From Lacisediminihabitans profunda (lineage in GTDB: Bacteria; Actinomycetota; Actinomycetes; Actinomycetales; Microbacteriaceae), in the NCBI RefSeq assembly GCF_008040105.1, contig NZ_VRMG01000005.1, positions 62,001 through 126,000 of the forward strand: 64,000 nt of DNA. Direction: 5' to 3'. Under the pieces are notes generated by a model, which had not been told where the DNA came from, did no database searches, and was given only the letters and a program-made list of their open reading frames with translations. Positions 2,338-22,800 of the stretch are shown here, one piece after another (the stretch's first letter is position 1; each line of letters opens with the position of its first letter). Both the position numbers and the translations under genes were made by a program.

Positions 2338-3258
2338 TTACTCTCCCGATCGAATAGTGAGCGGGGCTGCCCCGACCCGAGTTCTGAGCGTTCGTACCGT
2401 GGTCGACATGCAGATGAACAGGGTCCGTCCGTCATCGCCACCCCAGGTGAGGTTGGCGCTGGTCTCGTCCGTCTCGATAATGCCGAGAAGGTCACCGCTT
2501 GGTGCCAGCACCCAGATGCCTCCGCGAGCAGTGCACCAGATATTGCCGAATTCGTCGCATCTCATGCCGTCGGGGTTGCCTCGGCCCGGGATGTCCGTGT
2601 CGCCCATCCCCGCGTGGAACGGTCGACCGGGGGAGAGCCCGCCATCCGGCGCGACGTCGAAGGCGCGCACGCCGTGCAGGTCGTCGATGTAGAGCACGCT
2701 CTCGTCTGGCGAGAAGCACAGCCCGTTCGGCTGGTCGAACTCGTCACGCGCCACCACTAGTCGGGTCTCGCCACCCCCGGGCGGCACCATGAACACTCCC
2801 TGGAATCCGAGCTCAAGCCGTCGGTGGACTCCTACGACGTGGTCCCAGCGGCCGTAATCGGGGTCGGAGAAGTACACAGTCCCATCGGATCGCTCGACGA
2901 CGTCGTTGGGGCTGTTGAGGTAGGTACCCTCGAAATGGAATGCGACCAACTCGCGGTGTCCGTCGCGAAGCTCCCGCACCACGGAGCTGGTCACGTGTTC
3001 GCAGACGAGCAGGCTGCCGTCACGGGCCAGCGTCATCCCGTTGCCGATGCGATTGGGTTTCGCCGTGAGCACGGCAGCATCGGCTTCCGTCCACCGCCAG
3101 CGGGCGTCATTCTGGATGTCGTTGAACTGCAAGGACCGGTCGGCGGAATTCCAGACGGGTCCTTCCACAAACCTGAACCCCGATGCGATGGTGGTGAATT
3201 CCTCCGCGGGGTCGAGGAGCCGCTCGATGGCGGGCGTGCTGTGCGAGATGGTTACCAT
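2338..3258 (-). CDS. SMP-30/gluconolactonase family lactonase
   Basis: A 306-residue six-bladed beta-propeller of the SMP-30/gluconolactonase family. Family motifs are visible: FVEGPVWN near residue 30 (metal-binding Glu), the NSPNDVV segment with the metal-ligand Asn, FSDPDYG, QPNGLCFSPDE and GNPDGMRCDEFGN. These enzymes hydrolyse aldonolactones to aldonic acids. As first gene of the denD operon it would supply erythronate or another sugar acid from its lactone. ATG at 3258 is chosen because GGAGAG lies 9 bases upstream. An in-frame ATG 24 codons earlier lacks such a site and would run into the divergent promoter region. No signal peptide, so cytoplasmic. Confidence 0.85.
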   Translation of the reverse strand: MVTISHSTPAIERLLDPAEEFTTIASGFRFVEGPVWNSADRSLQFNDIQNDARWRWTEADAAVLTAKPNRIGNGMTLARDGSLLVCEHVTSSVVRELRDGHRELVAFHFEGTYLNSPNDVVERSDGTVYFSDPDYGRWDHVVGVHRRLELGFQGVFMVPPGGGETRLVVARDEFDQPNGLCFSPDESVLYIDDLHGVRAFDVAPDGGLSPGRPFHAGMGDTDIPGRGNPDGMRCDEFGNIWCTARGGIWVLAPSGDLLGIIETDETSANLTWGGDDGRTLFICMSTTVRTLRTRVGAAPLTIRSGE

Positions 3259-3294
3259 GCTCGATTGCTCTCCAATATCTCTACGACACCAATT

Positions 3295-3335
3295 ATTCGA
3301 AAGTCGTTGACGATTCGAATCTTTACACATATCGT
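3295..3335 (+). promoter_or_regulatory. Promoter with paired ATTCGAA operator (site 1), divergent intergenic region
   Basis: Two ATTCGAA elements at 3295-3301 and 3313-3319 are 18 bases apart. The sequence TTGACG (3307-3312) is a good -35 box, and TATCGT (3330-3335), 17 bases on, is an acceptable -10 for the FAH gene at 3379. The operator halves flank or overlap the -35 box, so a bound protein would block polymerase. The same arrangement recurs at 6685-6725. The region also separates this gene from the minus-strand lactonase operon, so both directions may be controlled. Confidence 0.6.
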
Positions 3336-3378
3336 CTGATTAGTCATTTTTCTTAGCCAAAGAGGGCAGTGAACAACA

Positions 3379-4221
3379 ATGCGTTTAGCAAACCTTTCGG
3401 GCCGGCTTGTGATCGTCTCCGGGTCGAAGGCCTCGGATGTCGAGGCTCTCAGCATCGGCCGGTTCTCTTCGGATCCGCAAGCAATCTACGGGGAGTGGGA
3501 TGAGTTCACGACGTGGGCGAGGACCGCGGACCTGACCGCGGGCGTCCCCTTTGACCACCATGACCTCCTCGCTCCAGTTCCCCGCCCGCGGCAGATCTTT
3601 GCGGTCGGCCTGAACTATCAGGAGCACGCGTCCGAAGTCGGGCTCGTGGCATCAAAAGTTCCGATCGTCTTCACCAAGTTCGTCTCGTCGATCACCGGAC
3701 CGCGGGCAGACGTCCCCCACCCGGGCGGCGACGTCGACTGGGAGGTGGAGCTCGTGGTGGTGATCGGCAAGACAGCGCGAAACGTGAGCGAGTCGGACGC
3801 CTGGGAGCACGTCGCCGGCCTCACTGTAGGGCAGGACATCTCGGAACGCATCACGCAGCACGAGGGTGCCACCCCCCAGTTCAGCCTCGGCAAGTCGTTT
3901 CCCGGCTTTTCGCCGATGGGACCGTGGCTCGTCACGCCGGACGAGTTCTCCGATCCTCGCGACATAGCCCTCGAGACAATCGTCAACGGTGCCACCCGGC
4001 AGCGCGGCCGAACCTCTGACATGGTGGCATCCGTGGCAACACTCATCACCGCGATGTCCAAGATCCTGGAGCTCCTTCCCGGCGACATCATCTTCACGGG
4101 GACGCCATCGGGAGTCGGCCTGGGGATGAAGCCGCCGCAGTTCCTGTCCGTGGGCGACGAGCTCGTGTCGCGGATCGAGGGCATCGGCGAGATGCGCAAT
4201 CGGATTGTCGCGGTGGCGTGA
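3379..4221 (+). CDS. Fumarylacetoacetate hydrolase (FAH) family protein
   Basis: A 280-residue FAH-fold protein with the usual small N-terminal domain and a C-terminal catalytic domain. It contains the metal-site pattern DWEVELVVVIG, then VGQDISER, SLGKSFPGFSPMGPWLV and the terminal FTGTPSGVGLGMKPP. Family members hydrolyse or decarboxylate beta-diketo or 2-oxo acids (acylpyruvate hydrolase, diketo-deoxy sugar acid hydrolase). First gene of a plus-strand operon reading into the deacetylase-like gene (GTGA overlap), the Ltp-type protein and DUF35. Substrate unknown; the context suggests a C-C or C-O cleaving step in sugar-acid breakdown. Confidence 0.82.
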   Translation: MRLANLSGRLVIVSGSKASDVEALSIGRFSSDPQAIYGEWDEFTTWARTADLTAGVPFDHHDLLAPVPRPRQIFAVGLNYQEHASEVGLVASKVPIVFTKFVSSITGPRADVPHPGGDVDWEVELVVVIGKTARNVSESDAWEHVAGLTVGQDISERITQHEGATPQFSLGKSFPGFSPMGPWLVTPDEFSDPRDIALETIVNGATRQRGRTSDMVASVATLITAMSKILELLPGDIIFTGTPSGVGLGMKPPQFLSVGDELVSRIEGIGEMRNRIVAVA

Positions 4222-4871
4222 CGGTGTCGAGGCGTCTCTCCCTTACATTCGACAACGGGCCGACGCCCGGTGTGACCGAGCACGTGCTGGCCGAGCTCGC
4301 TGCGCGTGCTGTCTTGGCGACCTTTTTCGTTGTGGGTCGAGACCTGGAACGCGACGGCAGCCGAGAGCTGGTGCAGCGTGCGAAGGATGCGGGGCATCGC
4401 ATTGGCAACCACACGATGACGCACAGCATCCAGTTCGGCACGAGCGACGATCCCGGCCTGCCCGATGCGGAGATCACGGCGGCGCAGGTCGTGCTCGGTG
4501 ATCTGGCCGAGGACGATCGCCTGTTCCGGCCATGGGGTGGAGGCGGAGTGCTCGGACCGAACTTATTGAGCCCCGCCGCCGTCGACCTGCTCGAACGCGA
4601 CGGATACACGCTGGTTCTTTGGAACGGTGTTCCTCGTGACTGGGAGGATGCGACCGGCTGGGTCGATCGGGCGCTCGCTGACATCGAGTCCCAGGACTGG
4701 ACGGTGCTCGTGCTCCACGACATCCAGAGCGGGGCAATGGCGCAGTTGGGGCAGTTCCTCGATCGCGTCATCGAATCCGGGGTAGAGATCGTGCAAGACC
4801 TTCCAGACGCCTGCGTGCCAATCCGGCGCGGGAAGCTGGTGGGAAGTCTCGACGACCTCGTCACTCGGTAG
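4218..4871 (+). CDS. Polysaccharide deacetylase (CE4/NodB-like) family protein
   Basis: A 217-residue NodB-homology protein. Motif 1 reads TFDNGP instead of the usual TFDDGP, motif 2 is present as GNHTMTH, and RPWGGGG and LVLHD correspond to the later motifs. CE4 enzymes are metal-dependent de-N- or de-O-acylases. The second Asp of motif 1, normally a metal ligand, is Asn here, so the chemistry or metal site may differ. No signal peptide, so it probably acts on a small intracellular substrate. GTG start overlaps the FAH stop (GTGA), showing translational coupling and suggesting a related step. Confidence 0.75.
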   Translation: MTVSRRLSLTFDNGPTPGVTEHVLAELAARAVLATFFVVGRDLERDGSRELVQRAKDAGHRIGNHTMTHSIQFGTSDDPGLPDAEITAAQVVLGDLAEDDRLFRPWGGGGVLGPNLLSPAAVDLLERDGYTLVLWNGVPRDWEDATGWVDRALADIESQDWTVLVLHDIQSGAMAQLGQFLDRVIESGVEIVQDLPDACVPIRRGKLVGSLDDLVTR

Positions 4872-4894
4872 CGAAACACATGGATACGACCCCC

Positions 4895-4943
4895 CTATAA
4901 CAGCCCCAATAAACAGCCCCACTAGAACAGCCTCTATAAACGG
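4895..4943 (+). repeat. 13-bp tandem repeat, about 3.8 copies
   Basis: Units start at 4895, 4908, 4921 and 4934. The first two end in the same ACAGCCCC, the third in ACAGCCT, and the last is cut short. The array sits in the leader of the Ltp-type gene, between the stop at 4871 and the ribosome site GGACAGGAG (4942-4950). No ATTCGAA element is present here, so this could be a different regulator site or a slippage-prone spacer. Confidence 0.6.
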
Positions 4944-4956
4944 ACAGGAGTAGCTC

Positions 4957-6132
4957 TTGGCAACCAGAGCGATAATCGCAGGGATTGGCGAATCCCCCCT
5001 CGGCAAGGTGCCGGGGATGACCGCCCTCGGCATCATTGTTGATGCCGCGCTGAACGCGATCGAAGACGCGGGACTCACCGTGCAAGACATCGACGGCATC
5101 ATCCTCCACCCCGCCTTTCACGTGTCTCCGCGGTACCACATCATCGTCGCGGAGACCCTCGGCATCTATGTGAAGACGATGGCCGACACAACCATGATGG
5201 GCGGCGCCTCCTATGGAGTCGCCATCGAGCGGGCCAAGCAGGCGGTCGAGAGCGGCCTGTGCAAGAACGTCCTGATCGTGGGTGGCGAGAAGCTCGCGAC
5301 CGGCCACGTGAGCGGGTCGGCGATGATGGCCTCCGTCGGTGCGCACAATCTGGACTACGAGTACCCGTTCGCGGCGACGATCCCGGCCTACTATGGCCTG
5401 CTGGCCCAGCGCTACCTGCACGACTACAACGCCGACGAGAGCGACCTCGCCCAAATAGCCGTCGCGACTCGCAAGCACGCGGCGCGCAACCCGAACGCGA
5501 CGATGCGTGAGCCGATCTCGGTGGACGACGTGCTCAACTCGCCGATCATCTCATCACCGCTTCACCGGCTCGACTGCTCCCTCGTCTCCGACGGCGGTGC
5601 GGCCTACGTCATTTCAGCGGCGGGGACAAGCAAGGACCCGTCACGCGAGGTCGAGGTGCTCGGTATCGGGCAGGCGCAGTCGTATTACCACATGGGTCAG
5701 CTCGCCGAAGGAAAGGGCGATCACGATCTCGTACGCACCGTCGTGGATGTGGCCGGCAAGCGTGCCTTCTCGCAGGCGGGCCTCACGCCGGCCGAGATCA
5801 ACATGGCGAACATCTACGACAGCTTCACTATCACGGTGATCGTGCAGCTCGAAGACCTCGGTTTCTGCGAGCGGGGAACCGCTGGAAAGTTCGCGGCGGA
5901 GGGAAACATCGACCCGGGTGGAAAGCTGCCGGTAAACACCCACGGCGGCCTGCTGAGCAACGCACACCCCGGCGCCTGCGGGGGAATGCTCGGCTTCACC
6001 GAGGCCGTGCGTCAGCTGCGAGGCGAGGCTGGCCTGCGCCAGGTGGCAAAGCATGACAACGCGCTCGTCAGCTCGGCGAGTGCCGTGGCATCCAACTTCT
6101 CTGTCAGCATCCTCGGCGCTCCGATTCAGTAA
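4957..6132 (+). CDS. Ltp/SCP-x type thiolase-fold protein (possible acyl-CoA retro-aldolase)
   Basis: A 391-residue thiolase-fold protein of the lipid-transfer/SCP-x branch. It has LIVGGEK, the NIYDSFTITV segment and the C-terminal NTHGGLLSNAHPGACGG. The position that carries the nucleophilic Cys in true thiolases reads MMGGASYGVA, without Cys. Ltp proteins lacking this Cys, paired with a DUF35 protein, act as retro-aldolases on beta-hydroxyacyl-CoA in steroid side-chain degradation. Here the DUF35 gene follows 11 bases downstream. TTG start at 4957 with GGACAGGAG 6 bases upstream. Role inferred: cleaving a hydroxyacyl-CoA intermediate in this catabolic block. Confidence 0.78.
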   Translation: MATRAIIAGIGESPLGKVPGMTALGIIVDAALNAIEDAGLTVQDIDGIILHPAFHVSPRYHIIVAETLGIYVKTMADTTMMGGASYGVAIERAKQAVESGLCKNVLIVGGEKLATGHVSGSAMMASVGAHNLDYEYPFAATIPAYYGLLAQRYLHDYNADESDLAQIAVATRKHAARNPNATMREPISVDDVLNSPIISSPLHRLDCSLVSDGGAAYVISAAGTSKDPSREVEVLGIGQAQSYYHMGQLAEGKGDHDLVRTVVDVAGKRAFSQAGLTPAEINMANIYDSFTITVIVQLEDLGFCERGTAGKFAAEGNIDPGGKLPVNTHGGLLSNAHPGACGGMLGFTEAVRQLRGEAGLRQVAKHDNALVSSASAVASNFSVSILGAPIQ

Positions 6133-6143
6133 GGGGACATCAC

Positions 6144-6557
6144 ATGCAGCACATCACAAGACCACTTCCCTCCATCACCCAGGACAACGAAGACTTCTGG
6201 AGATCCACGAGGGAGCACGCCGCCAGACTCCAGCGCTGCAATGCGTGCGAGAAGTTCTGGTACTACCCAGGTCCCGTCTGCCACAACTGCGGAGCGCGGA
6301 ACTGGACGTGGACCCTGTTGAGTGGCGTCGGCACCATTTACAGCTACTCGGTGCTTGAGCGCGCGAAAGGCAATCCGTACGAGGAAGACGTGCCGATCAC
6401 CATCGTCCTGGTGCGGCTGGCGGAGGGTCCAGTCGTCATGTCGAACCTCTTCGACTACGAGCCGGGAGAGCTCGCGATCGATGCCGAAGTGATGATCGAT
6501 TATGAGGATGTCAACGACGAAGTCACCCTGATTGTGTTCCGGCCCGCGCGCCGGTAG
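6144..6557 (+). CDS. DUF35 / OB-fold protein with zinc ribbon, partner of Ltp-type protein
   Basis: A 137-residue protein. The N-terminal helix and rubredoxin-like zinc ribbon show Cys pairs in CNAC (about residue 32) and CHNCG (about residue 48), followed by an OB-fold domain (GTIYSYSVLERA, VPITIVLVRL, GELAIDAEVMIDYED). DUF35 proteins form complexes with Ltp or HMG-CoA-synthase-like proteins and help bind the CoA substrate. It is encoded right after the Ltp-type gene, which makes a two-subunit enzyme likely. Confidence 0.82.
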   Translation: MQHITRPLPSITQDNEDFWRSTREHAARLQRCNACEKFWYYPGPVCHNCGARNWTWTLLSGVGTIYSYSVLERAKGNPYEEDVPITIVLVRLAEGPVVMSNLFDYEPGELAIDAEVMIDYEDVNDEVTLIVFRPARR

Positions 6558-6684
6558 GGGGTCTTCGTGCACCATTCGGCGATCGTTTCGACGCTGACCG
6601 GCATCGAGTCGGCCGGGGGATCACGCATGCGCTGGTGGCGTGATGGATCCGATATTGCACCATGTAAAAGCAGAAGAGCAAGAT

Positions 6685-6725
6685 ATTCGAAAAACGTTGA
6701 CGATTCGAAATTCGTCCCGTAACAT
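6685..6725 (+). promoter_or_regulatory. Promoter with paired ATTCGAA operator (site 2)
   Basis: ATTCGAA at 6685-6691 and 6703-6709, again 18 bases apart, with TTGACG (6697-6702) between them and a -10-like TAACAT (6720-6725) after a 17-base spacer. The region from ATTCGAA through the -35 box is almost identical to that at 3295-3320. It would drive the importer operon that starts at 6763. Confidence 0.62.
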
Positions 6726-6762
6726 CCCGAAGTAAGCAGCCCCGAGAACCAGGAAAGCGTCA

Positions 6763-7551
6763 ATGAAGACTAATCAGGACACCGCAGAGCCGATCCTTGC
6801 TGTCGAGAATGTGTCGAAGAGCTATTCGGGCACCGATGAGGCATCCCTCGTTCTTCGCTCCGTCAACCTCACTGTGGCCAAGTCCGAGTTCATCAGCATC
6901 ATCGGGCCGAGCGGGTGCGGCAAGACGACCCTGATGAAGATCTGCGCAGGCCTGCTGTCACAGACCAGCGGCGTCGTGACATTCGCGGGCAAGGCCGGCA
7001 CCCCGCCTCCCCGCAAGATGGGCGTGGTGTTCCAGTCGGCGGCGCTGCTGCCGTGGCGTACGGTCATGGCCAACATCCTGCTGCCCGCAACGATCCAGAA
7101 AGCAAACATGACGAAGGCGAAGGAGCGGGCACGCGAGCTCCTGGACATGCTCAACCTCGTCGGTGTCGAATCCAAGTACCCCTGGGAGCTATCCGGCGGA
7201 ATGCAGCAGAGGGTCTCGATCGCGAGGTCGTTGGTCCTCGAGCCCGAGGTTCTCTTCATGGACGAGCCATTCGGCGCTCTCGACGCGATGACGCGGGAGA
7301 AGCTGAACCTCGACCTCCAGGCCATTCACGCACGCACCGGCGCCACGATCATGTTCGTCACCCACAACATCGCCGAGGCGGTGTTCCTCTCCGATCGGAT
7401 CGTCGCGATGGCGGCCCGCCCCGGCCGCGTCGCAGACGTCATCGATGTCACGCTGGATCGTCCTCGTACACAGGACAGTTACGTCGACGAAGACTTCAGA
7501 GAAATTGAAACCAGAGTGCGTAACTCTTTTGACCGAGCGGCGGCGAGCTGA
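6763..7551 (+). CDS. ABC transporter ATP-binding protein, nitrate/sulfonate/taurine (SsuB/TauB) type
   Basis: A 262-residue ATPase with Walker A GPSGCGKTT, Q-loop FQSAALLPWRT, signature LSGGMQQR, Walker B VLFMDEPFGALD and switch His in FVTHNIAEAVFLSDR. FQSxALLPWRT and the overall length are typical of the SsuB/TauB/NrtD group. It forms an importer with the permease (one base gap) and the lipoprotein downstream. Substrate not deducible from the ATPase; in this block it is probably a sugar acid or its conjugate rather than a sulfonate. Confidence 0.9.
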   Translation: MKTNQDTAEPILAVENVSKSYSGTDEASLVLRSVNLTVAKSEFISIIGPSGCGKTTLMKICAGLLSQTSGVVTFAGKAGTPPPRKMGVVFQSAALLPWRTVMANILLPATIQKANMTKAKERARELLDMLNLVGVESKYPWELSGGMQQRVSIARSLVLEPEVLFMDEPFGALDAMTREKLNLDLQAIHARTGATIMFVTHNIAEAVFLSDRIVAMAARPGRVADVIDVTLDRPRTQDSYVDEDFREIETRVRNSFDRAAAS

Positions 7552-7552
7552 C

Positions 7553-8392
7553 ATGACCACTGACATGAATTCCGTGTTCAACGCGGAGAATCCCATTGCA
7601 CCACCGGCAGGCGACCGGTCGCAAACAAGATCGACTCGACTGGTCAATGCCGGGCTGAGTGTTCTCCTGCTGATTGTCGCCCTGGGGGCGGTTGAGCTTG
7701 TCAGCCGTTCGGGTCTCGTCTCAATCCTCCTCGTGCCACCGCCCAGCGCCATTTTCGCGACGCTCGTGAACGGCATCGCGAGCGGGATCTATTGGGAGCC
7801 ACTCCTCAACTCGCTCTCCGCGGCCTTCGGCGGCTTCCTGATAGCGGCAGTCCTTGGCTTCGCGATTGGCGGCCTCCTCGCCTCGCTGCCACGGTTGGAG
7901 AGGATCGTGTTTCCCTACGTGGTTGCCTTCCAATCCACCCCCATGATCGCCATCGCGCCGCTGATCATCATTTGGGTCGGATTCGGCATCCAGTCGAAGA
8001 TCGTCGTCGTCATGGTGGTCTGCTTCTTCCCGATCCTCGTGAACACGCTTCAGGGCTTGCGGCTCCGCGATCGTGACAGGCAAGAACTGGCCGTGGCCCT
8101 CGGGGCAAATAGGTGGCAAGTCTTCCGCTACATCCGCCTGCCTGGCTCCATGCCCTACGTCTTCGCCGGCCTGCACGTCAGCGCGATCTTCGCGCTCATC
8201 GGAGCGATAGTCGCCGAGTTCGTGGGCGCGCGGGGAGGGCTCGGCACGATGATGAACGAGCAGCGCGCACTGTTCAACGTGCCAGGAGTGTTCGCCATCC
8301 TCATAATCCTGATGGTCCTCGGGCTGACAGTGAATCTGCTCATGAAGGCACTGGAGAAGCGCGTGACCTTCTGGGCGCGGGAGAAGAACTAG
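7553..8392 (+). CDS. ABC transporter permease, SsuC/TauC type
   Basis: A 279-residue inner-membrane permease with about six hydrophobic segments and the BPD-transport EAA-like loop ELAVALGANRWQVFRYIRLPGSMPY. ATG at 7553 is preferred because it directly follows the ATPase stop (7549-7551). The longer frame starting at 7445 lies inside the ATPase gene. One permease gene implies a homodimer, as in SsuABC systems. Confidence 0.9.
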   Translation: MTTDMNSVFNAENPIAPPAGDRSQTRSTRLVNAGLSVLLLIVALGAVELVSRSGLVSILLVPPPSAIFATLVNGIASGIYWEPLLNSLSAAFGGFLIAAVLGFAIGGLLASLPRLERIVFPYVVAFQSTPMIAIAPLIIIWVGFGIQSKIVVVMVVCFFPILVNTLQGLRLRDRDRQELAVALGANRWQVFRYIRLPGSMPYVFAGLHVSAIFALIGAIVAEFVGARGGLGTMMNEQRALFNVPGVFAILIILMVLGLTVNLLMKALEKRVTFWAREKN

Positions 8393-8479
8393 CGGCACTC
8401 GAGCTTGCGAGTCGTGACCTGCACGCGGCGCGCTAAGAAAAAACCGAACACACCAAGAAAACAAAGGAGTTTTACCCGC

Positions 8480-9565
8480 ATGATGAAGAAAATGGTGTTT
8501 CCCCTAGCGGCGCTTGCGACAGTCGCACTGATCCTGTCAGGGTGTTCTTCCGCCACGCCCAAGGCGTCCTCGTCGTCGGGTGGCCTCACTACGGTGAACC
8601 TGACGCTCCCGGCGCCGGCATCACTCGAGTCGGTTGTCTACGACTGTGTGCCCAACATGGAAGGCTTCTTCAAGAAGGAAGGGCTCAAGGTCAATGTAGA
8701 GACGGCGGAGGGCAGCGTTCTTGCTTTGCAATCGCTCGAGACCGGGACCAGCGACGTCGTCGTCGTCGGCACATCGCCCCTCATGGCCGGCATCGGCGCG
8801 GGATCGACCGCGAAGGCATTCGCCTCCGTGGTGACCGGCAGCTACGCCTATCCCGCGGTGCTGCCGAACAGCCCGATCAAGACCTTCCTCGACCTTCAGG
8901 GAAAGACCGTCGGCGTCCCCAGCCTGCAAAGCGGATCCATTCCGTTCACGCGCGGCCTCGTCGCCCTCGCGGGCGGCAACCCGAAGTTGGTCGAATTCCT
9001 TCCGACTGGATTCGGTGCACCGGCACTCGCGGCCCTGAAGAGCGGGCAGATCGACGCGCTCGGCCTCTGGGACACCGCGTACGAGGTCATCAAGGGACTC
9101 GGCCAGCCGCTGAGGTTCATCCAGAACGACCAGTCGAAGAAGCTCGGTTTTCAAGTCGTCTACGCGGCCAAGTCCGCGTGGATCGACAAGAACCCGAAGG
9201 TCGCCCTGGGCATGTCTCGCGCAATGAACAAGGCCTATGTGTTCGCCATCACGAACCCCGAAGCGGCCCTCAAGGACTGCTGGGACGAGTACCCGAACCT
9301 GGTGCCAACCGGCGTCGACCCTGTCAAGGCGAAGGCTGACGGTCTGGCCGCGGTGAAGGCCCGGCTCGCATCGAGTGGTCCCGTCGACGGCGTCTACGGC
9401 ACGTCTACTGCGGACCAGGTGCAGACGTTCTACTCGCTGCAGGTGGCTGCCGGCACGGTGAAGCCGGGCATCACGGTGGGTCAGCTGTGGACAGACAAGT
9501 TTGTCAAAGACGCCAACAAGTTCGACGTCGCCGCCGTCAAGAAGGCTGCTGCCGCCAAGAAGTAA
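8480..9565 (+). CDS. ABC transporter substrate-binding lipoprotein (NMT1/SsuA-like)
   Basis: A 361-residue lipoprotein with a basic N-terminus, hydrophobic segment and lipobox ILSGC. The mature part shows the SsuA/TauA/THI5-like fold: FFKKEGLKVNVETAEG, DVVVVGTSPLMAGI, DLQGKTVGVPSLQSG and DALGLWDTAYEV. AAAGGAG ten bases before the ATG at 8480 supports this start. Anchored outside the membrane, it delivers the solute to the permease just upstream. The family binds sulfonates, nitrate, pyrimidine precursors or aromatic acids; the ligand here is unknown. Confidence 0.88.
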   Translation: MMKKMVFPLAALATVALILSGCSSATPKASSSSGGLTTVNLTLPAPASLESVVYDCVPNMEGFFKKEGLKVNVETAEGSVLALQSLETGTSDVVVVGTSPLMAGIGAGSTAKAFASVVTGSYAYPAVLPNSPIKTFLDLQGKTVGVPSLQSGSIPFTRGLVALAGGNPKLVEFLPTGFGAPALAALKSGQIDALGLWDTAYEVIKGLGQPLRFIQNDQSKKLGFQVVYAAKSAWIDKNPKVALGMSRAMNKAYVFAITNPEAALKDCWDEYPNLVPTGVDPVKAKADGLAAVKARLASSGPVDGVYGTSTADQVQTFYSLQVAAGTVKPGITVGQLWTDKFVKDANKFDVAAVKKAAAAKK

Positions 9566-9591
9566 CGATGAACCTATAGCACCGCATGGGT

Positions 9592-9624
9592 GGCCCGGCA
9601 CGTGAGAAATCACGAGCCGTGGCC
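9592..9624 (+). terminator. Possible hairpin terminator after the importer operon
   Basis: GGCC and GGC-CGTGA pair with TCACG-GCC and GGCC around a GAAA tetraloop (loop at 9606-9609), with one A-A mismatch and a short unpaired stretch. It lies 27 bases after the lipoprotein stop. The following T-run is weak (ATCTTT), so termination is plausible but unproven. Confidence 0.4.
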
Positions 9625-9851
9625 ATCTTTGTGTTGCGGCGAGTAATCGAGCATCGCCGAAGTACCACGCCCCGGCATGGCCGGAGGCCTGCCGTGGCCA
9701 AGCTGGGCAGTGCGGCGACAGTTGTGTGATTGTCGCGGTTCACAGTCCGGGAGACGGATCAGGCGGAGTTTCTGCGGGCTCGGTTGGCGGCAAGCAGTCG
9801 CTCCGGTGTCACCCCCTGGAACGGCGAGCTGTACTGATCCTGGAGGTCCTC

Positions 9852-10054
9852 GTGTCCGACCCTAACGCTGCTCTGACCTCGCGTCACCGGCTGCGTCTCG
9901 CGCGTCTGATCGTCGATGAGAATTGGCCGGTCGCTCTCGCAGCCCCGACGGTTCAATGTTTCGGGCCCGACCGCCCAACGGTGGGCCGAACGCCATGCCT
10001 GGATGGGCGCGGCGGGATGGCCGACCGGTCGGTGCGCCGGCATCGAGACCCACT
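9852..10054 (+). pseudogene. IS481-family transposase remnant (N-terminal fragment, frameshifted)
   Basis: From GTG at 9852 (GGAGG 5 bases upstream) the frame reads VSDPNAALTSRHRLRLARLI, the typical IS481 N-terminal helix-turn-helix lead. A second frame continues with RFNVSGPTAQRWAERH, and a third ends with GMADRSVRRHRDP, matching the conserved MADRSSRPH-type segment. The pieces are collinear but in three frames, so at least two indels occurred, and the DDE catalytic domain is absent. It sits in a 548-base gap between the importer and the acyl-CoA synthetase; I see no clear terminal repeats and nothing else in the gap apart from the hairpin. Confidence 0.7.
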
Positions 10055-10113
10055 ACAACGGCGGGGAGTTGGTGCGGAATTAGCCGGTCAACCAACGTCC
10101 CTGGGCAGTGCAG

Positions 10114-11745
10114 TTAGCCGCCCTGCCCCACGAGGCGGCCGGTCGCGGTCCCGAATCTCGCCGCGAGCTCGCGCTTGAGGATCTTGCCGCTCTCCGTCAT
10201 CGGCCACGTGTCCACCTGGATGATCTCCCGCGGCACCTTGAAACTTGCCATCAGCGAAGCGCAATGTTCGATGATCGCCGCCTCGTCAAAGCGGGCGCCA
10301 CTCATCTGGACGAACGCCACGGGCACTTGCCCGAGCCTCTCATCCGGCTTGCCAACGACTGCGACGTCCGCGACTCCTGGAAACGTTTGGATCACCCGTT
10401 CCACTTCGGCGGCCGACACATTCTCGCCGCCGGGTTTGATCATGTCCTTGACGCGATCCACGAAGTAGAGGTTGCCGCTGCTGTCGAGACGCCCGATGTC
10501 GCCGGTGTGGAAGAAGCCGTCGGCGTCAATGGCCTCCTCGGTGGCTTTCTCGTTGCGGTAGTAGCCGAGCATCACTGACCAGCCGCGAATGATGATCTCT
10601 CCCGTGACGTCCGCTCGATGAGTGGCCCCGCTGTCGGTCTGGATGGCCACCTCTATTCCGGGAATCGCTCGGCCGCAGGAGTGAACCCACACGTCCTCTG
10701 GGTCGTCCAGCGAGTTGATCGTTGTGGTGCCGGCGGTCTCGGTCAGGCCGTAGATGGTCGTCATGACGGCCACACCCATTTCTCGGCTGATGGTGCGGCG
10801 CAACTCGGGGGTTCCCCCGGACCATGCCTTCGTGAGGGTGGCAAAGATCTCGGCGTGGTAGTCGGGGTGAGCGAGTTCCATGGCGTACATCGCCGCCTGT
10901 CCGGTCCGCGCGGTGCACCCATACTTGGGAATGAGTGAGAAAACCGCCTCCGGCGAATAGCGCTCAGGCACGATCATCGTGGGAGATGCGCCCAGGGCCA
11001 TGAGTGTGGTGGCTACCGAACCGCCCACGTGATACATCGGCTGTGTGCTGAAGTAGATGTCGTCGGCATCGATCTGCATGCGCTCGGCGATATACCAGGT
11101 TGCCCCGAGGGTGGCCCGACTATTGAGCAGCGCCCCCTTCGGAAATGCGCTGGTGCCCGACGTGAACTGGAGAAGCACTGGATCGTCTGCGCGACCGATT
11201 ATCGAGGGCGTCTCCGACGCAGCACCGAGCGCCAGCAGCTCCGCCCAAGTGCGACGGCCGGCTCGACCCTGGCTCGCCGCGGCAACCAATTCGACGGCGG
11301 GGGAGTCGAGTGTCACGAGTTCGAGCGGGGGCCCCGGAACAGACCTGGTAACGAGGTCGACGTAGTCGACGTTGTGATACTTCTCTATGAGCACCACGAC
11401 CTTGGGCTGGCAGAGCCCGAGGACGAAGCCGACCTCGTCCTGGCGGTATCTCGTATTCACCGGAACGATGATCGCGCCGAGGTGGCTGCACGCCGTCTGC
11501 AGAATGGGCCACATCGCCGAACCTGGCGCCAGCGCCGCCACGCGGTCTCCCTTGCCCACCCCAAGCGCGGCCAGTCCGGCGGCAACGGCGCGGGACGTCG
11601 TAAGCCAATCCGTGAAAGACAACGCCTGGTGCCATTCCGGACCCTCGAAGTGGAATGCTGGGCGACCGCCGAGGCGGGCTTCGGCGCGTTGGAGGGCCTC
11701 CGCCCAGCTGAATTCGAGGATCTCGGCGAGGTCTGGAGCAGACAT
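10114..11745 (-). CDS. AMP-dependent acyl-CoA synthetase/ligase
   Basis: A 543-residue ANL-superfamily enzyme. It carries the P-loop LLQFTSGTSAFPKGALL, YGLTETAGTT, the hinge region HTGDIGRLDSSGNLYFVDR, GGENVSAAEVE and the catalytic Lys motif SGKILKREL near the C-terminus. It activates a carboxylic acid through an acyl-adenylate and transfers it to CoA. Divergently transcribed from the double CoA-transferase gene. In this block it may create the CoA thioester that the Ltp/DUF35 pair and the 3HCDH-like enzyme could use. Substrate not predictable from sequence. Confidence 0.88.
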   Translation of the reverse strand: MSAPDLAEILEFSWAEALQRAEARLGGRPAFHFEGPEWHQALSFTDWLTTSRAVAAGLAALGVGKGDRVAALAPGSAMWPILQTACSHLGAIIVPVNTRYRQDEVGFVLGLCQPKVVVLIEKYHNVDYVDLVTRSVPGPPLELVTLDSPAVELVAAASQGRAGRRTWAELLALGAASETPSIIGRADDPVLLQFTSGTSAFPKGALLNSRATLGATWYIAERMQIDADDIYFSTQPMYHVGGSVATTLMALGASPTMIVPERYSPEAVFSLIPKYGCTARTGQAAMYAMELAHPDYHAEIFATLTKAWSGGTPELRRTISREMGVAVMTTIYGLTETAGTTTINSLDDPEDVWVHSCGRAIPGIEVAIQTDSGATHRADVTGEIIIRGWSVMLGYYRNEKATEEAIDADGFFHTGDIGRLDSSGNLYFVDRVKDMIKPGGENVSAAEVERVIQTFPGVADVAVVGKPDERLGQVPVAFVQMSGARFDEAAIIEHCASLMASFKVPREIIQVDTWPMTESGKILKRELAARFGTATGRLVGQGG

Positions 11746-11851
11746 GGAGGGCGCCCTTCTTTGGCAAATGCCACAACGCTGTACAGTGCGAGCGCGATTG
11801 GTCGCGCATCTTCAGCGCCATCCTAACGGATGTTTCGCAGAACCAATAGAT

Positions 11852-11858
11852 ATTCGAA
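11852..11858. promoter_or_regulatory. Single ATTCGAA element (site 3) between ligase and CoA-transferase genes
   Basis: One copy of the seven-base element in the divergent intergenic region 11746-11950, about 107 bases upstream of the ligase start and 93 bases upstream of the CoA-transferase start. No second exact copy is visible at the 18-base spacing seen at sites 1 and 2, so it would be a weaker or half site. Confidence 0.4.
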
Positions 11859-11950
11859 GATCTGTCGGTGTGCGCCAAATTTCCCCGTGTTGCGAAAACC
11901 ACTGCTAGCATACGTGCGTATACCCGTCGACGAAGAAGAGGTAATGCGGC

Positions 11951-14239
11951 ATGGCCACGCTAGACAGAATTCGTGTTCTCGATCTGGGGCATTACGTGGC
12001 GGGACCGCTGACGGCGCAACTTCTTGCACAGCAGGGTGCTGAGGTCGTTCGCGTGGACCGCCCGGGCGCGATCGACGGTCTTGCTGACGCGTATCTGCAG
12101 CGCAACAAGCAACGGATCAGTCTGGATCTGAAGAGGCCGGCCGATGTCGAGACCGCTCGGAGTCTGGCAGCTGATTGTGACGTCGTCATCGAGAACTTCC
12201 GACCGGGCGTCCTCGACCGGATTGGACTCTCCGCCGAGGTGCTCATGGCAGAGAATCCCGGACTGATCTACTGCTCGATTCCAGGCTTCGCGGCAGCCGA
12301 TCCACGCTCGCAGGTGCAGGGCTGGGAGGGTGTGATCGACGCGGCGACCGGCAACTGCAGGGTTCGGGTTGGTGAGGCTCCGCCCGACTGGGATTTCACC
12401 AGGCCAACCTTCAGTGCGCTCCCGCTCGCCTCGAACTTCGCGGCGATCCTCTCGGCGACGGCGATCGTCGCGGCCCTGACCGAGCGTGAGGTGACCGGCA
12501 GAGGTGCGCGCCTGGAGGTGCCTCTCTTTGATTCAATGTTCGAGCTAATCGGCGGAGCCGGTGCGTACTCCGCCGAGCGGGGTTTTCAGAGCGAAGCTCC
12601 GCTTATCGCGAATGGCAGCGGAACGTATGAATGCGCCGACGGCACGTTCGTTCAGTTCAACCCGATTGGTGCCACCATGAGATTCCTGATCTGGTTTCTC
12701 GATGCGGCGGGAAAGCAGGACTGGATCGCAGAGGGGCTCGGTCTCGCGTCCTCATACACAGCGGATCCCGAGCTGGCCGCTGCCCTGCGCGTGCGCCTCG
12801 CGGCCCTCTTCCTGACCAGGCCCGCGCAAGAGTGGGAGGAACTCGGGCAGGAGGCCGGAGTCCCGCTCTGCATGGTGAGGTCGTCGCGGGAGTGGATGGA
12901 GAATGACCACGCGCGGGCTTCCGGGCAGGTTGTTGAGGTCACGGACCCTGAGTTCGGACGTACCTGGATGGCGGGGGTGCCCATTCACCTTTCGGAGAGT
13001 CCGTCGGTGGCTCCGACCCCGAGACATGCCGTGGACGCAGACCGGTCGATCGTCCTTGACGCACTCGCGCAGCGCGGTGGTGCTGTGGCGAACTCCGGTC
13101 AGGCTCGCGCCCCCAAGCAGATGAAGGACGTCCGCGTGGTGGACCTCACGCAGATTCTGGCCGGTCCCAGCGCCGGCAGAATGCTCGCGGAGTATGGCGC
13201 AGACGTCATCAAGGTCAACGCGCCACAACGCAACATCGAGGCCCACGGAATAGTCAACCGGGGCAAGCGATCCATCCTCATCGATCTTCAGCGCAGCGAG
13301 GGGCAGGCGTTGCTCTGGGAACTGATTGATCGCGCAGATGTCGTGACCCAGAACTTTCCGCAGGGGACGGCGGAGCGCTATGGCCTCGGGTATCGCCATG
13401 TCCATGCGCGAAGGCCGGACATCGTCTTCGTGTCAGTGAGTTGCTACGGATACGACGGGCCCTGGGCGCAGGGTCGCGGGTACGAGGTGCAGGGGCAGGC
13501 GGTGACCGGCATCATGGAGCGGGCAGGCCGTGGCGGGAAGCCCGCAGTGCTCGGCCCATACAATCCCCTCGATTACGGAACGGGCGCCATGGCCGCGTTT
13601 GCCGCGACTCTGGGCCTGTTTCACAGGGCTCGAACCGGGCAAGGCCAGCATGTTTCAACGTCACTCGCGCAGGTGGGTACCTTCCATCAGGCAACGATGC
13701 TGGTGGGCAATGCCGGCTCGGACGGTGAGGCGGCGGGTCGCGATGCCTTGGGGGCATCGCCCCTTCAGCGTTTCTATCAGGCTTCGGACGGATGGTTCTT
13801 TCTCGGGGCACGCACAGAGCAACTCGAGGCCATAGTTGCCGTCAGTCGAGTGCTGCCAGACGGATCGATCTCGTTCGAAGAGGGGCTCGAAGCCGCTTTT
13901 ATCGCCAAGGATGTCGCGCACTGGGTGCGCAGCCTCCGAGACGGAGGAGTCGGCGCGCACGAAATCGTGCGTTTGCCCGATCTGCTTCTCGATCGCTATG
14001 TCGTCGACTCTGGCCTGCGGGTCGAACAGGTATCGGAGGAGGTGGGGCCAGTGATCATGCCCGGTCCTGCAGTGATCATCGATGGTCGACGGATCAGCGC
14101 CGGCAGACCGGCCAATGCGCCAGGGGCCGACGCGCAATCCGTCTTGGATGAGATTGGGCGAGGCGACGAACTCTCGTCATTGGAGTCGCGCTGGGTCGTG
14201 CAACGCGTCGCGCTCCCGTCAGGATGGCCAAAACCCTAA
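11951..14239 (+). CDS. Tandem (fused) CaiB/BaiF family III CoA-transferase
   Basis: A 762-residue protein with two CaiB/BaiF domains. The first starts at RVLDLGHYVAGPLTAQLL (about residues 7-370) and the second at VRVVDLTQILAGPSAGRMLA (about 390-760). Family III transferases move CoA between acids through an aspartyl-CoA anhydride. In the second domain the catalytic Asp is visible in NPLDYGTGAMAAFA (D541). At the equivalent place in the first domain the sequence is LPLASNFAAILS, with no Asp near residue 161. The fusion therefore seems to have one active and one inactive half, mimicking the intertwined homodimer. GAAGAGG lies upstream of the ATG. Confidence 0.85.
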   Translation: MATLDRIRVLDLGHYVAGPLTAQLLAQQGAEVVRVDRPGAIDGLADAYLQRNKQRISLDLKRPADVETARSLAADCDVVIENFRPGVLDRIGLSAEVLMAENPGLIYCSIPGFAAADPRSQVQGWEGVIDAATGNCRVRVGEAPPDWDFTRPTFSALPLASNFAAILSATAIVAALTEREVTGRGARLEVPLFDSMFELIGGAGAYSAERGFQSEAPLIANGSGTYECADGTFVQFNPIGATMRFLIWFLDAAGKQDWIAEGLGLASSYTADPELAAALRVRLAALFLTRPAQEWEELGQEAGVPLCMVRSSREWMENDHARASGQVVEVTDPEFGRTWMAGVPIHLSESPSVAPTPRHAVDADRSIVLDALAQRGGAVANSGQARAPKQMKDVRVVDLTQILAGPSAGRMLAEYGADVIKVNAPQRNIEAHGIVNRGKRSILIDLQRSEGQALLWELIDRADVVTQNFPQGTAERYGLGYRHVHARRPDIVFVSVSCYGYDGPWAQGRGYEVQGQAVTGIMERAGRGGKPAVLGPYNPLDYGTGAMAAFAATLGLFHRARTGQGQHVSTSLAQVGTFHQATMLVGNAGSDGEAAGRDALGASPLQRFYQASDGWFFLGARTEQLEAIVAVSRVLPDGSISFEEGLEAAFIAKDVAHWVRSLRDGGVGAHEIVRLPDLLLDRYVVDSGLRVEQVSEEVGPVIMPGPAVIIDGRRISAGRPANAPGADAQSVLDEIGRGDELSSLESRWVVQRVALPSGWPKP

Positions 14240-14241
14240 GC

Positions 14242-14271
14242 ATTCGAAATGCACCGCGATATTCTTTGAAT
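14242..14271 (+). promoter_or_regulatory. ATTCGAA operator (site 4) upstream of the GntR gene
   Basis: ATTCGAA at 14242-14248, followed by the imperfect copy ATTCTTTGAAT at 14261-14271, directly after the CoA-transferase stop (14239) and before the GntR ribosome site AGGGGAGGG (14273-14281). Its place is what is expected for autoregulation by the GntR protein. Confidence 0.45.
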
Positions 14272-14289
14272 TAGGGGAGGGTTAAACTG

Positions 14290-15036
14290 ATGCATAAAGA
14301 TCAAAACATGCCGCGCACTGCGTATACGGTGATACCATCAGCTTTCGTGAAGAGCGGGCCGACTAAGAAGACAATGGCGATCGACGTGCGTGATCGCATG
14401 CGATCCGACATTCTCTCTGCGCGCCTCATTCCCGGTCAGCGGCTGATGTTCGCCGATCTGAGCGAGCGCTATGGCGTGAGCGTCGGAGTCACCCGAGAAG
14501 CGCTCACCTGGCTCTCGAGCCAGGGCCTCGTGCAGGCGAATGCCCATCAGGGGTACATTGTGACGCCGCTGTCAATACCGGACCTCACCGAATTGACCGA
14601 GACCCGCATACTCATTGAACCGCTGGTGCTTCGCATGTCGTTCGAGACCGGCGGCATGGACTGGGAGGGTGACGTCATATCGGCTCACCACATCCTGTCT
14701 CGTACGCCGCCGCCTCACGGTCCAAAGGCCCTCGATGAAGATGCACTTGACCAGTGGGCCGAGGTCCACTCTGCTTTCCATGAGGTGCTGTTCGCCGCGT
14801 GCACGAACAAGCGCCTCCTGCGAACGGTGAAGCAACTCGCTGAGGAGGCTGCGATGTATCGACGTTGGTCGGTAGCGCTCGTGTTGAGCAATCCGCAGGC
14901 CGAGAACGAGCATCGTGCACTGCTGGAAGCTGCTCTCGACGGGGACTGGGAACGCGGTGGTGCCGTGTTGAGGACCCACATCGAGCACACTCGCGAGATG
15001 CTCACGAACTACCAGGCAGCTCACCCCGACGAATAG
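14290..15036 (+). CDS. GntR family transcriptional regulator (FCD domain)
   Basis: A 248-residue regulator. Residues about 28-95 form a winged helix-turn-helix (LSERYGVSVGVTREALTWLSSQGLV), and the C-terminal half is an all-helical FCD ligand domain (ETRILIEPLVLRMS, FHEVLFAACTNKRLL, NEHRALLEAALDGDW, H at the end of the metal-site helix). FadR/FCD proteins usually repress acid-sugar catabolic genes and release DNA when they bind a carboxylate. It lies in the middle of the tetronate block, and ATTCGAA elements occur in five intergenic regions here, making it the obvious candidate regulator. Confidence 0.88.
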   Translation: MHKDQNMPRTAYTVIPSAFVKSGPTKKTMAIDVRDRMRSDILSARLIPGQRLMFADLSERYGVSVGVTREALTWLSSQGLVQANAHQGYIVTPLSIPDLTELTETRILIEPLVLRMSFETGGMDWEGDVISAHHILSRTPPPHGPKALDEDALDQWAEVHSAFHEVLFAACTNKRLLRTVKQLAEEAAMYRRWSVALVLSNPQAENEHRALLEAALDGDWERGGAVLRTHIEHTREMLTNYQAAHPDE

Positions 15037-15216
15037 GGCATGTTCCCGGCGGACGGGGCCTGAGCGCCAAAATGCGCGCGGAAGGGCTGTCGGTCAGATC
15101 GCCCACTATCGCCTCGCCTCTGGGCTTCCGATGCCTGACACCGTCGCCGAGGCTTCCCCTGCTCGCGGGGAGCGAGATCCCCGGACATCGATCGGTCTTC
15201 CGGCACTTTCACGCTA

Positions 15217-15248
15217 TCGACAATTTTCGAATATCAAGTTATATTCTT
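15217..15248 (+). promoter_or_regulatory. Promoter with ATTCGAA-like operator (site 5) for the tetronate operon
   Basis: TCGACA (15217-15222) and TATATT (15240-15245), 17 bases apart, make a strong actinobacterial promoter. TTCGAA (15226-15231) lies in the spacer, and a degenerate half (ATTCTT, 15243-15248) overlaps the -10 box. The remaining part of the 325-base gap between the GntR stop and the kinase start shows no gene with a convincing ribosome site. Confidence 0.55.
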
Positions 15249-15361
15249 TTTGGGTCCGCGCATTCGACGGTCCCAGGACTAGTGAGACCGCGTCTGTCAG
15301 CGGCTCACGGCGCCGATACGCACCTCGATTCCGGTGCAACACCCCTGAAGGGCCCTCGAAA

Positions 15362-16762
15362 ATGACTGACTCCGCAGCGGTACGCCAGCAGATCCGCGAC
15401 TGGCGGGAGAGCCGGTCCAGGCGGTTGGTCGTGCTCGACGATGATCCAACAGGTTCGCAGAGTGTGCACGACGTCCAGATAGTCACGGTCGTCTCCGAGG
15501 CGGAAATCACCCGCGCGCTGACCGACCGTGGTTCCACTGCATTTGTCCTCACTAATACGCGGGGCCTGCAGGAAGCCGAGGCCATCGAACTCAACAAGCA
15601 GGTGGTGACGAGCGCTCTTGCCGTCCACGGCGATGGCGTCGACATCATCAGCCGAAGCGATTCGACGCTCCGCGGTCACGTCATTGCGGAGATCGAGGCA
15701 ATCGATGAATGTCGGGCTGGGATTGTCGGTCGCCACGTCGATGGTGTGTTGTTCGCGCCTGCATTTTTTGAGGCGGGGCGGTTCACCGTGGGGGACACTC
15801 ATTACGCAACCGTTGACGGCGTGCCGGTGCCGGTAGGGAAGAGCGAGTTTGCGCGGGACGCAACCTTCGGCTACGCGTCTTCCAACCTGGGGGATTTTCT
15901 GGGGGAGCTGAGTCATGGACGAGTCCCTCCCGAGGACGTTCTGAGTATTTCTCTCGAGACCATCACTGAGGGAGGCCCCGATGCGGTGCGTGACGTGCTG
16001 ATGCGTGCATCAGGGGCGGCATGGATTGTCATCAATGCGACGAGCTACGAGCATTACGAAACCGTGGTGCTGGGGGTGCAGGCGGCGATCGACGCCGGGC
16101 GGACTTTCCTCTTCCGCACCGGCCCGTCATTTGTGCGCGCCCTCGCCGGCCTTGAGCCGAAAGACCCGCTGTCGACAGCCGATTTCCCGCAACTGGGTTC
16201 GACGGACGCTCACGGTCTGATTTTGGTGGGCTCGCACGTGAGCCAGACGAGTCGTCAGGTCGCGGCGGTTCGGCTCTCTGGCGGCCTGGCTGAATTCGAG
16301 TTGAACGTCCCCCTCATCCTCGCGGGCGACAGGTCCTACATTCCCGCCGCCGCCGCGTCGGTCCGGGCGGCTCTCGCCAACCATGACGTGCTCGTGTACA
16401 CGAGTCGAGAAGTCATCGGTGGGGAGAGCGCCGCCGCAAGCCTCGACATCGCGCGAACCGTCTCGAACGCCGTCAGCGAAGTTGTCGCCGGCGCACTAGC
16501 CGCTCGTCCCGCGTGGATCATCGCCAAGGGTGGCATCACCTCCCACGACGTGGCCGTGCGCGGGCTTGGCATGCGGCGCGCACGGGTCCTCGGTCAACTA
16601 CTGCCGGGCCTGGTCTCGGTATTCGAGCCACTGACGGCTTCTCCGGAGGCGAGAGGCGTGCCCTATGTCGTGTTCGCGGGCAACGTGGGAGACGATGACA
16701 CGCTCGCGCATGTTGTCTCTGTTCTCCGCTCGGCTCAGCCGGCGCGGGAGCTCGCACGATGA
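15362..16762 (+). CDS. Four-carbon acid sugar kinase family protein (DUF1537), probably 3-oxotetronate kinase
   Basis: A 466-residue DUF1537 kinase. The N-terminal domain begins with LVVLDDDPTGSQSVHDV and has the IISRSDSTLRGHV segment (conserved K/R-DSTLRG substrate loop). The C-terminal nucleotide domain has GLILVGSHVS, AKGGITSHDV and VPYVVFAGNVGDDDTL. DUF1537 proteins phosphorylate tetronates or oxo-tetronates at O4. It is followed, with an ATGA overlap, by an LtnD-type dehydrogenase, which in the known L-threonate pathway works with the 3-oxotetronate kinase OtnK. Which of the two kinases in this operon takes which acid cannot be read from sequence. ATG at 15362 is chosen because the DUF1537 fold begins there. 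Confidence 0.8.
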   Translation: MTDSAAVRQQIRDWRESRSRRLVVLDDDPTGSQSVHDVQIVTVVSEAEITRALTDRGSTAFVLTNTRGLQEAEAIELNKQVVTSALAVHGDGVDIISRSDSTLRGHVIAEIEAIDECRAGIVGRHVDGVLFAPAFFEAGRFTVGDTHYATVDGVPVPVGKSEFARDATFGYASSNLGDFLGELSHGRVPPEDVLSISLETITEGGPDAVRDVLMRASGAAWIVINATSYEHYETVVLGVQAAIDAGRTFLFRTGPSFVRALAGLEPKDPLSTADFPQLGSTDAHGLILVGSHVSQTSRQVAAVRLSGGLAEFELNVPLILAGDRSYIPAAAASVRAALANHDVLVYTSREVIGGESAAASLDIARTVSNAVSEVVAGALAARPAWIIAKGGITSHDVAVRGLGMRRARVLGQLLPGLVSVFEPLTASPEARGVPYVVFAGNVGDDDTLAHVVSVLRSAQPARELAR

Positions 16763-22706: not shown

Positions 22707-22800
22707 CACGCTTCCCTCCCACTTGAGTGCGCGGTCACCGTGAGGCGAGACCCGCGATCATCGTATATCGAAGCTGGCATAGCACTCTCCGCGCCGCGTT

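Follow-up and report, generated by a model that had tools for sequence, protein, structure and literature searches.

A TTCGAA palindrome as the candidate operator of a GntR/FCD regulator in a catabolic gene block of Lacisediminihabitans profunda

Introduction

In Lacisediminihabitans profunda, the word ATTCGAA recurs ahead of genes for a lactonase, an FAH-family protein, an importer, coenzyme A (CoA) enzymes, tetronate kinases and a regulator with GntR and FCD domains. Two questions are raised by this locus: whether the word is the operator of that regulator, and whether the genes behind it serve one pathway. The DNA analysed, called the window here, is a stretch of 64,000 nucleotides (contig NZ_VRMG01000005.1, positions 62,001 to 126,000). 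The results support a local GntR/FCD regulon whose proposed operator and recognition helix lie outside the published common consensus of the family. Comparison across genera indicates that TTCGAA is very probably the operator of the block's own GntR/FCD regulator, which would control the block, about 18 kb of breakdown genes.

The subfamilies of GntR regulators are divided by their C-terminal domains. According to a study of the family, the common operator of the FadR/FCD type is TKGT/ACMA, Arg-45 of FadR contacts the G, and exceptions to the consensus are listed, such as BioR (TTATMKATAA) and NanR (TGGTATAW repeats) within the FadR subfamily; double sites at a near-constant distance are also described there for some divergons that contain the regulator gene (Suvorova et al. 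2015, PMC4494728). The window regulator resembles these FadR/FCD regulators in having a winged helix and an FCD domain, a local catabolic regulon and palindromic, A/T-rich operators; unlike them, it is associated with TTCGAA without GT/AC boxes and has Val or Ala in its clade where the helix Arg would stand. BioR and NanR are precedents for leaving the subfamily consensus, although their sequences differ from TTCGAA.

Sites in the window and in the genome

Exact ATTCGAA is found at 3295+, 3313+, 6685+, 6703+, 11852+, 14242+ and 15226-. With a minus-strand match at 3314-3320 that overlaps the copy at 3313+, this gives eight matches in the window, all of them between 3295 and 15232 (12 kb). The operator usually takes the form WTTCGAAW, with looser, A/T-rich flanks. 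An initial annotation of this DNA had listed nine copies, of which seven are confirmed; the second copies placed at 14261 and 15243 read ATTCTTT, are mismatched at two of seven positions, and were rejected as not credible. The layout that it described as common to sites 1 and 2 is present in both: operator, TTGACG, operator, and a -10 hexamer (TATCGT or TAACAT) 17 nt past TTGACG (Table 1). Its placement of site 4 before the GntR gene and of site 5 in the promoter of the tetronate operon is also correct, the latter promoter being TCGACA-17-TATATT with the operator in the spacer. Site 4 is likely to mediate autoregulation of the GntR gene.

If the lactonase gene begins at 3258 and the kinase gene at 15362, every site falls between genes. 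A longest-open-reading-frame (ORF) caller set 3295, 3313, 3314 and 15226 within ORFs. Since the orthologue alignments stop near the starts at 3258 and 15362 and do not extend upstream, these four were still taken as intergenic.

The whole-window count is not in itself significant and was rejected as proof: eight matches compare with a shuffle mean of 4.36 (standard deviation 2.36), and 10 of 100 shuffles reach 8. The genome of 4,016,580 bases contains 234 copies, and 18 lie elsewhere in the 484 kb of this contig that include the window, five of them intergenic by a crude gene caller. What is exceptional about the motif is its clustering and layout rather than its number. At the density given by those 18, only 0.46 copies are expected in 11,954 bases, and the probability of at least seven is about 5e-7, in a test picked post hoc. 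In the own genome, TTGACNWTTCGAA matches sites 1 and 2 only, and ATTCGAA-N8-16-TTCGAA is likewise found only there. The paired site is thus confined to the block genome-wide. Equal frequency in unrelated promoters, which would have overturned the initial annotation, is not what the paired site shows. The looser TTCGAA-N11-13-TTCGAA gives three pairs in the genome, two of which are in the block. Across the family, TTGACNWTTCGAA matches in 59 of 398 genomes, its reversed control also matching in a number of genomes; the matches in G000 and G110 are the ones that were taken further. TTCGAA-N9-15-TTCGAA of some kind occurs in 178 of 299 genomes.

A symmetrised position weight matrix was built from 17 sites in five loci of relatives and run on the window and a further 420 kb of the own genome (483,538 positions). 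Its ranks 1 to 5 went to window positions 15226, 3314, 6686, 11853 and 3296, with 6704 at rank 9 and 14243 at rank 16, for which the 74 TTCGAA words in the scanned 484 kb are the fair denominator. The top match off the block in the scanned part lies at L093 7136 (about C117:453136), with 16.89 bits and rank 6.

Conservation in related clusters

A scan of genome contigs yielded three orthologous regulators, with identities over the best segments of 81% in Naasia aerilata, 76% in a metagenome-assembled genome (MAG) filed as "Chloroflexi" and 62% in Nakamurella endophytica. A family search added a fourth from the relative G110, with 59% identity; two stops reported in this match sit upstream of the start codon of its open frame. 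The MAG record (L066, DAHXON010000006.1) combines its Chloroflexi label with a 76% regulator and the same operator layout, which mis-binning or transfer could explain. As the comparison with related genomes shows, the operators recur in other genera ahead of corresponding genes.

All 16 genes from DenD to PdxA stand in the same order in Naasia, and four of the five sites are at matching promoters (SGL/FAH, ligase/CoA-transferase, GntR and tetronate). The tetronate promoter reads TCGACA-17-TAGATT there (from L068 10766). The fetched Naasia locus ended within FAH, so that the SGL/FAH pair was expected just past its edge, an expectation not recorded beforehand; the sole TTCGAA-N11-13-TTCGAA pair of the 3.4-Mb record, at 1256658-1256681, lies between SGL and FAH, as expected. 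In the same record (NZ_AP027731.1; L068, L111) the matches to GntR, CoA-transferase, ligase, LtnD-like, SGL and DenD each fall in two abutting or overlapping pieces, as expected from frameshifts or sequencing indels.

The 4.9-Mb genome of Nakamurella has four such pairs (650.5, 664.3, 679.5 and 696.5 kb), all within 46 kb around the GntR gene at 681 kb, and three of them enclose TTGACG. Both pairs of the MAG are in its cluster, ahead of FAH and thiolase, and all three pairs of G110 lie on its two cluster contigs. The place and layout of site 1, between the lactonase gene (minus) and the FAH gene (plus), recur in Naasia, Nakamurella and G110. In total, ten promoters in five genomes share the arrangement operator, TTGAC, operator, 17 or 18 nt, -10: two in the window, one in Naasia, three in Nakamurella, two in the MAG and two in G110. 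One of the ten (L053 5246) has an operator distance of 19 bp and a poor -10, CACACT. TTCGAA stands ahead of the GntR gene in four of the five clusters, the counterparts of site 4 being at L068 9955, L066 9957 and L053 6018.

Two further TTCGAA words were seen in G110 (L097 13295 and 13383), between the gene of a branched-chain-type binding protein and a second SGL; one of them follows TTGACA. One genus with a regulator of 42-43% identity has 18-bp TTCGAA pairs that enclose TTGTAG or TTGTAC, not TTGACG (L057 7376, L058 11144, L061 12077).

The regulator and its recognition helix

The regulator matches the GntR domain PF00392 with 41 bits (cut-off 27) and the FCD domain PF07729 with 66 bits (cut-off 24.3). 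The GT/AC operator and the helix Arg, which are typical but not strictly defining features of the FadR subfamily, are absent: the sites read TTCGAA and the helix SVGVTREAL. CsiR (NF008576) is its closest NCBIfam model, yet at 117 bits the regulator fails the curated equivalog cut-off of 218.

How far TTCGAA follows this type of regulator was read from 53 GntR rows of the fetched loci, comprising 16 with the helix S[VA]GV, 13 others of at least 33% identity and 24 below 33%; L101, L010 and L056 contribute two rows each. Rows were left out when they came from the own genome (L001-L004, L034, L077-L096), duplicated longer loci (L005-L009, L040-L052, L069-L076), began their match past residue 60, or belonged to loci without a match at 1e-5. 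L098, where the word runs into the predicted start of GntR, was scored as a miss. In the 300 bp upstream of GntR, TTCGAA is present in 11 of the 16 S[VA]GV rows (1.98 expected), in 1 of the 13 others and in 3 of the 24 distant ones. For the linked FAH gene, the corresponding fractions are 12/14, 1/6 and 1/1, the last being the FAH of an S[VA]GV locus. Upstream of either gene, the word is found in 15 of 16 S[VA]GV rows as against 1 of 13 others of at least 33% identity, and in 4 of 24 below 33%. TTCGAA thus tracks one GntR clade across related genomes.

At the helix position of the FadR Arg, placed by means of the numbering of the FadR paper and the shared helix pattern, the TTCGAA clade has Val or Ala. 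Arg is present in 18 of the 24 rows below 33% identity, the other six having Ala or Pro. The idea that loss of this Arg alone makes a reader of TTCGAA was not borne out, as 12 of the 13 other homologues of at least 33% identity are without Arg and 11 of these 12 are without TTCGAA. The loss thus extends beyond the TTCGAA clade, and what the word goes along with is either the complete S[VA]GV or the clade itself. In the one open-access collection searched, the papers that contain both TTCGAA and GntR gave no pointer to a TTCGAA operator of a GntR protein, though a report elsewhere is possible; the TTCGAA passages of PMC5083789 and PMC13274462 are primers and not operators.

Proposed mechanism and alternatives

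We propose that a dimer of the GntR protein binds the TTCGAA palindrome. Sites 1 and 2 would each accommodate two dimers, with centres 18 bp apart, that flank the -35 TTGACG, the second of them in the spacer between -35 and -10. As 18 bp amounts to about 1.7 turns, the two would probably not share a face of the helix. The single operator of site 5 would likewise occupy the spacer. RNA polymerase would be excluded, most likely as repression, and the paired operators would tighten it. Release would be brought about by a small-molecule effector at the FCD domain, for which an acidic metabolite of the pathway is the likeliest candidate, given the carboxylic-acid effectors associated with the FCD family. 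The GntR protein would also repress its own gene through site 4. The genes so controlled would probably constitute one catabolic programme, in which import, lactone opening and CoA-dependent cleavage feed the breakdown of D-erythronate or threonate.

Several findings weigh against this reading. The link between operator and GntR protein comes from sequence comparison, and the Fisher value for the 15/16 versus 1/13 contrast, 3e-6, overstates certainty because the relatives are not independent, several sharing a genus. The training sites behind the matrix ranking were picked for TTCGAA, so the core is built in and the information sits in the flanks. One of the three N11-13 pairs in the genome, at C150:403062, is outside the block. 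Site 2 was looked for in Naasia and is absent, with no TTCGAA in the gap between the OB-fold and importer genes. In Nakamurella, where GntR comes after FAH and the deacetylase, the 300 bp next to GntR are free of TTCGAA, and the pair at 696495 is without TTGACG and overlaps a called ORF. Among nine searched genomes with a regulator of 42-45% identity, a pair lies within 2 kb of GntR in three (one genus) and 11 kb off in one, and none is near in five. L102, finally, has TTCGAA together with a different helix, SIGA.

Could the pattern be an accident, an A/T-rich word enriched in promoters and picked post hoc? Eight matches per 64 kb within the shuffle range and 234 in the genome would suit such an origin. 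Nevertheless, position, spacing and promoter geometry are conserved in five genomes, including the one expectation that came true in Naasia, and this cross-genome conservation makes chance very unlikely. Alternatively, TTCGAA may be the site of another regulator that also serves the block. LexA comes to mind, its actinobacterial motif being composed of TCGAAC words (PMC2248561), and the GntR-DNA connection is itself drawn from compared genomes. However, TCGAAC half-sites occur on neither strand in any of the seven window copies, and a LexA/SOS box was rejected. The motif, moreover, accompanies GntR genes that share one type of helix, in several genera, and precedes GntR in the four clusters noted above, so that service to another regulator appears improbable. 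The initial proposal that one regulator governs the regulon is supported by conservation and by co-occurrence with the GntR clade; that the protein binds these sites, whether it acts there as a repressor, and a common pathway are inferences. The span that it gave was too small, and the regulon is extended by the D-erythronate dehydrogenase gene at 1310-2332 and by tetronate genes to 19726. The DenD gene beyond that span strengthens the tetronate link.

Whether the regulon is one pathway is a separate matter. The GntR-bound operator might couple two, a CoA/thiolase route and tetronate use, through a shared inducer or repressor. Such coupling would accommodate the variation in importer family: the NMT1-type importer of the window and Naasia is replaced in Nakamurella, the MAG and G110 by one of branched-chain type, which has TTCGAA next to its binding-protein gene. 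It would also fit the 20.7-kb MAG locus, where a search at E 1e-8 finds none of the tetronate kinase, PdxA, LtnD-like and DenD genes. On the other hand, the genes of the two supposed routes are intermingled. The Nakamurella 650.5-kb pair heads a minus-strand, co-directional run of thiolase (85%), OB, ligase, 3-hydroxyacyl-CoA dehydrogenase, tetronate kinase, LtnD-like and DenD, all behind one paired operator. In G110 the LtnD-like gene ends the FAH operon and the kinase comes after GntR, and in the window DenD stands behind the lactonase at site 1. Since this mixing across genomes is most economically read as one pathway, we consider a single pathway probable and the coupling of two rather unlikely. 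Searches of NCBIfam and PDB named no substrate.

A more specific proposal joins both subjects: an FCD-type GntR clade, having an S-[VA]-G-V helix where others bear Arg, may have switched from the GT/AC operator to TTCGAA. Its best-kept sub-clade would use two operators 18 bp apart to clamp the -35, and may govern a pathway not described so far, whose lactonase, FAH and thiolase reactions would set free a four-carbon sugar acid for DenD, DUF1537-type kinase and PdxA-type steps. For this proposal as a whole we find the balance level, our confidence in it being lowered by the loss of Arg beyond the TTCGAA clade.

The block shares DenD, LtnD-like, DUF1537-type kinase and PdxA-type genes with the pathways for D-threonate, L-threonate and D-erythronate; the difference is that here a GntR-linked operator joins them to genes for a lactonase, FAH, thiolase, ligase and CoA-transferase. 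VdtR of Brucella, a regulator of erythronate use, is reported to be of the DeoR family (PMC10580937). The TTCGAA palindrome offers a testable operator for a group of FCD regulators whose genes are linked to FAH in numerous genomes of actinobacterial type, and the helix variants, S[VA]GV with TTCGAA and others without, form a natural series for studying how GntR proteins choose DNA. Tying CoA-thioester chemistry to tetronate breakdown would also narrow the search for the substrate.

Annotation of the block

DUF1537 kinases are used in the pathways for D-threonate, L-threonate and D-erythronate. Two proteins of the tetronate operon are of this type, and both score under the cut-off of 450 of the D-threonate kinase model NF047819 (15362-16762, 48.6 bits; 17628-18725, 113.7 bits). 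With 328.8 bits, the PdxA-type protein at 18722-19726 stays under the cut-off of NF002891 (583), the model for D-threonate 4-phosphate dehydrogenase.

Table 1. Candidate operators and genes of the block, in window coordinates.
Feature	Coordinates	Strand	Description
D-erythronate dehydrogenase (DenD type)	1310-2332	-	NCBIfam NF043036, 376 bits (cut-off 325)
SMP-30/gluconolactonase-family lactonase	2338-3258	-	Pfam SGL on ORF 2338-3330; start by homology
Site 1	3295-3319	+	Two TTCGAA operators 18 bp apart around -35 TTGACG 3307-3312; -10 TATCGT 3330-3335
FAH-family hydrolase/lyase	3379-4221	+	Pfam PF01557
Polysaccharide-deacetylase-fold hydrolase	4218-4871	+	Pfam PF01522
SCP2-type thiolase	4957-6132	+	Pfam PF22691
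OB-fold/ChsH2-type thiolase partner	6144-6557	+	Pfam PF01796
Site 2	6685-6709	+	Same paired layout; TTGACG 6697-6702; -10 TAACAT 6720-6725; precedes ATP-binding cassette (ABC) importer operon
ABC importer	6763-9565	+	ATPase 6763-7551, permease 7445-8392, NMT1/THI5-like binding protein 8405-9565
Acyl-CoA ligase	10114-11745	-	Pfam PF00501
Site 3	11852-11858	+	Single operator between ligase (minus) and CoA-transferase (plus) genes; kept in Naasia (L068 7648)
Double-domain family III CoA-transferase	11951-14239	+	Pfam PF02515, two stretches
Site 4	14242-14248	+	Single operator about 40 bp ahead of GntR start; between CoA-transferase stop 14239 and GntR start 14290
GntR/FCD regulator	14290-15036	+	Pfam GntR and FCD; recognition helix SVGVTREAL; proposed TTCGAA-binding repressor
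Site 5	15226-15232	-	Single operator in spacer of promoter-like TCGACA-17-TATATT (from 15217); precedes tetronate operon
Tetronate operon	15362-19726	+	Four genes
DUF1537-type kinase	15362-16762	+	SBD_N and NBD_C matched (Pfam on longer ORF 15131-16762)
L-threonate-dehydrogenase-like (LtnD-like)	16759-17631	+	Under cut-off of NF043037: 256.7 bits (350)
Short DUF1537-type protein	17628-18725	+	365 aa; only first part of SBD_N and last part of NBD_C matched
PdxA-type dehydrogenase	18722-19726	+	TIGR00557, 345.2 bits (cut-off 290.35)

The shortened kinase-like protein at 17628-18725 is kept in two genera, a similarly placed homologue in Naasia having 47% identity over 372 columns. Past the tetronate operon lies a second GntR-family gene (21936-22709), which is nearest to phosphonate-type and NanR models, under their cut-offs, and has no exact ATTCGAA nearby.

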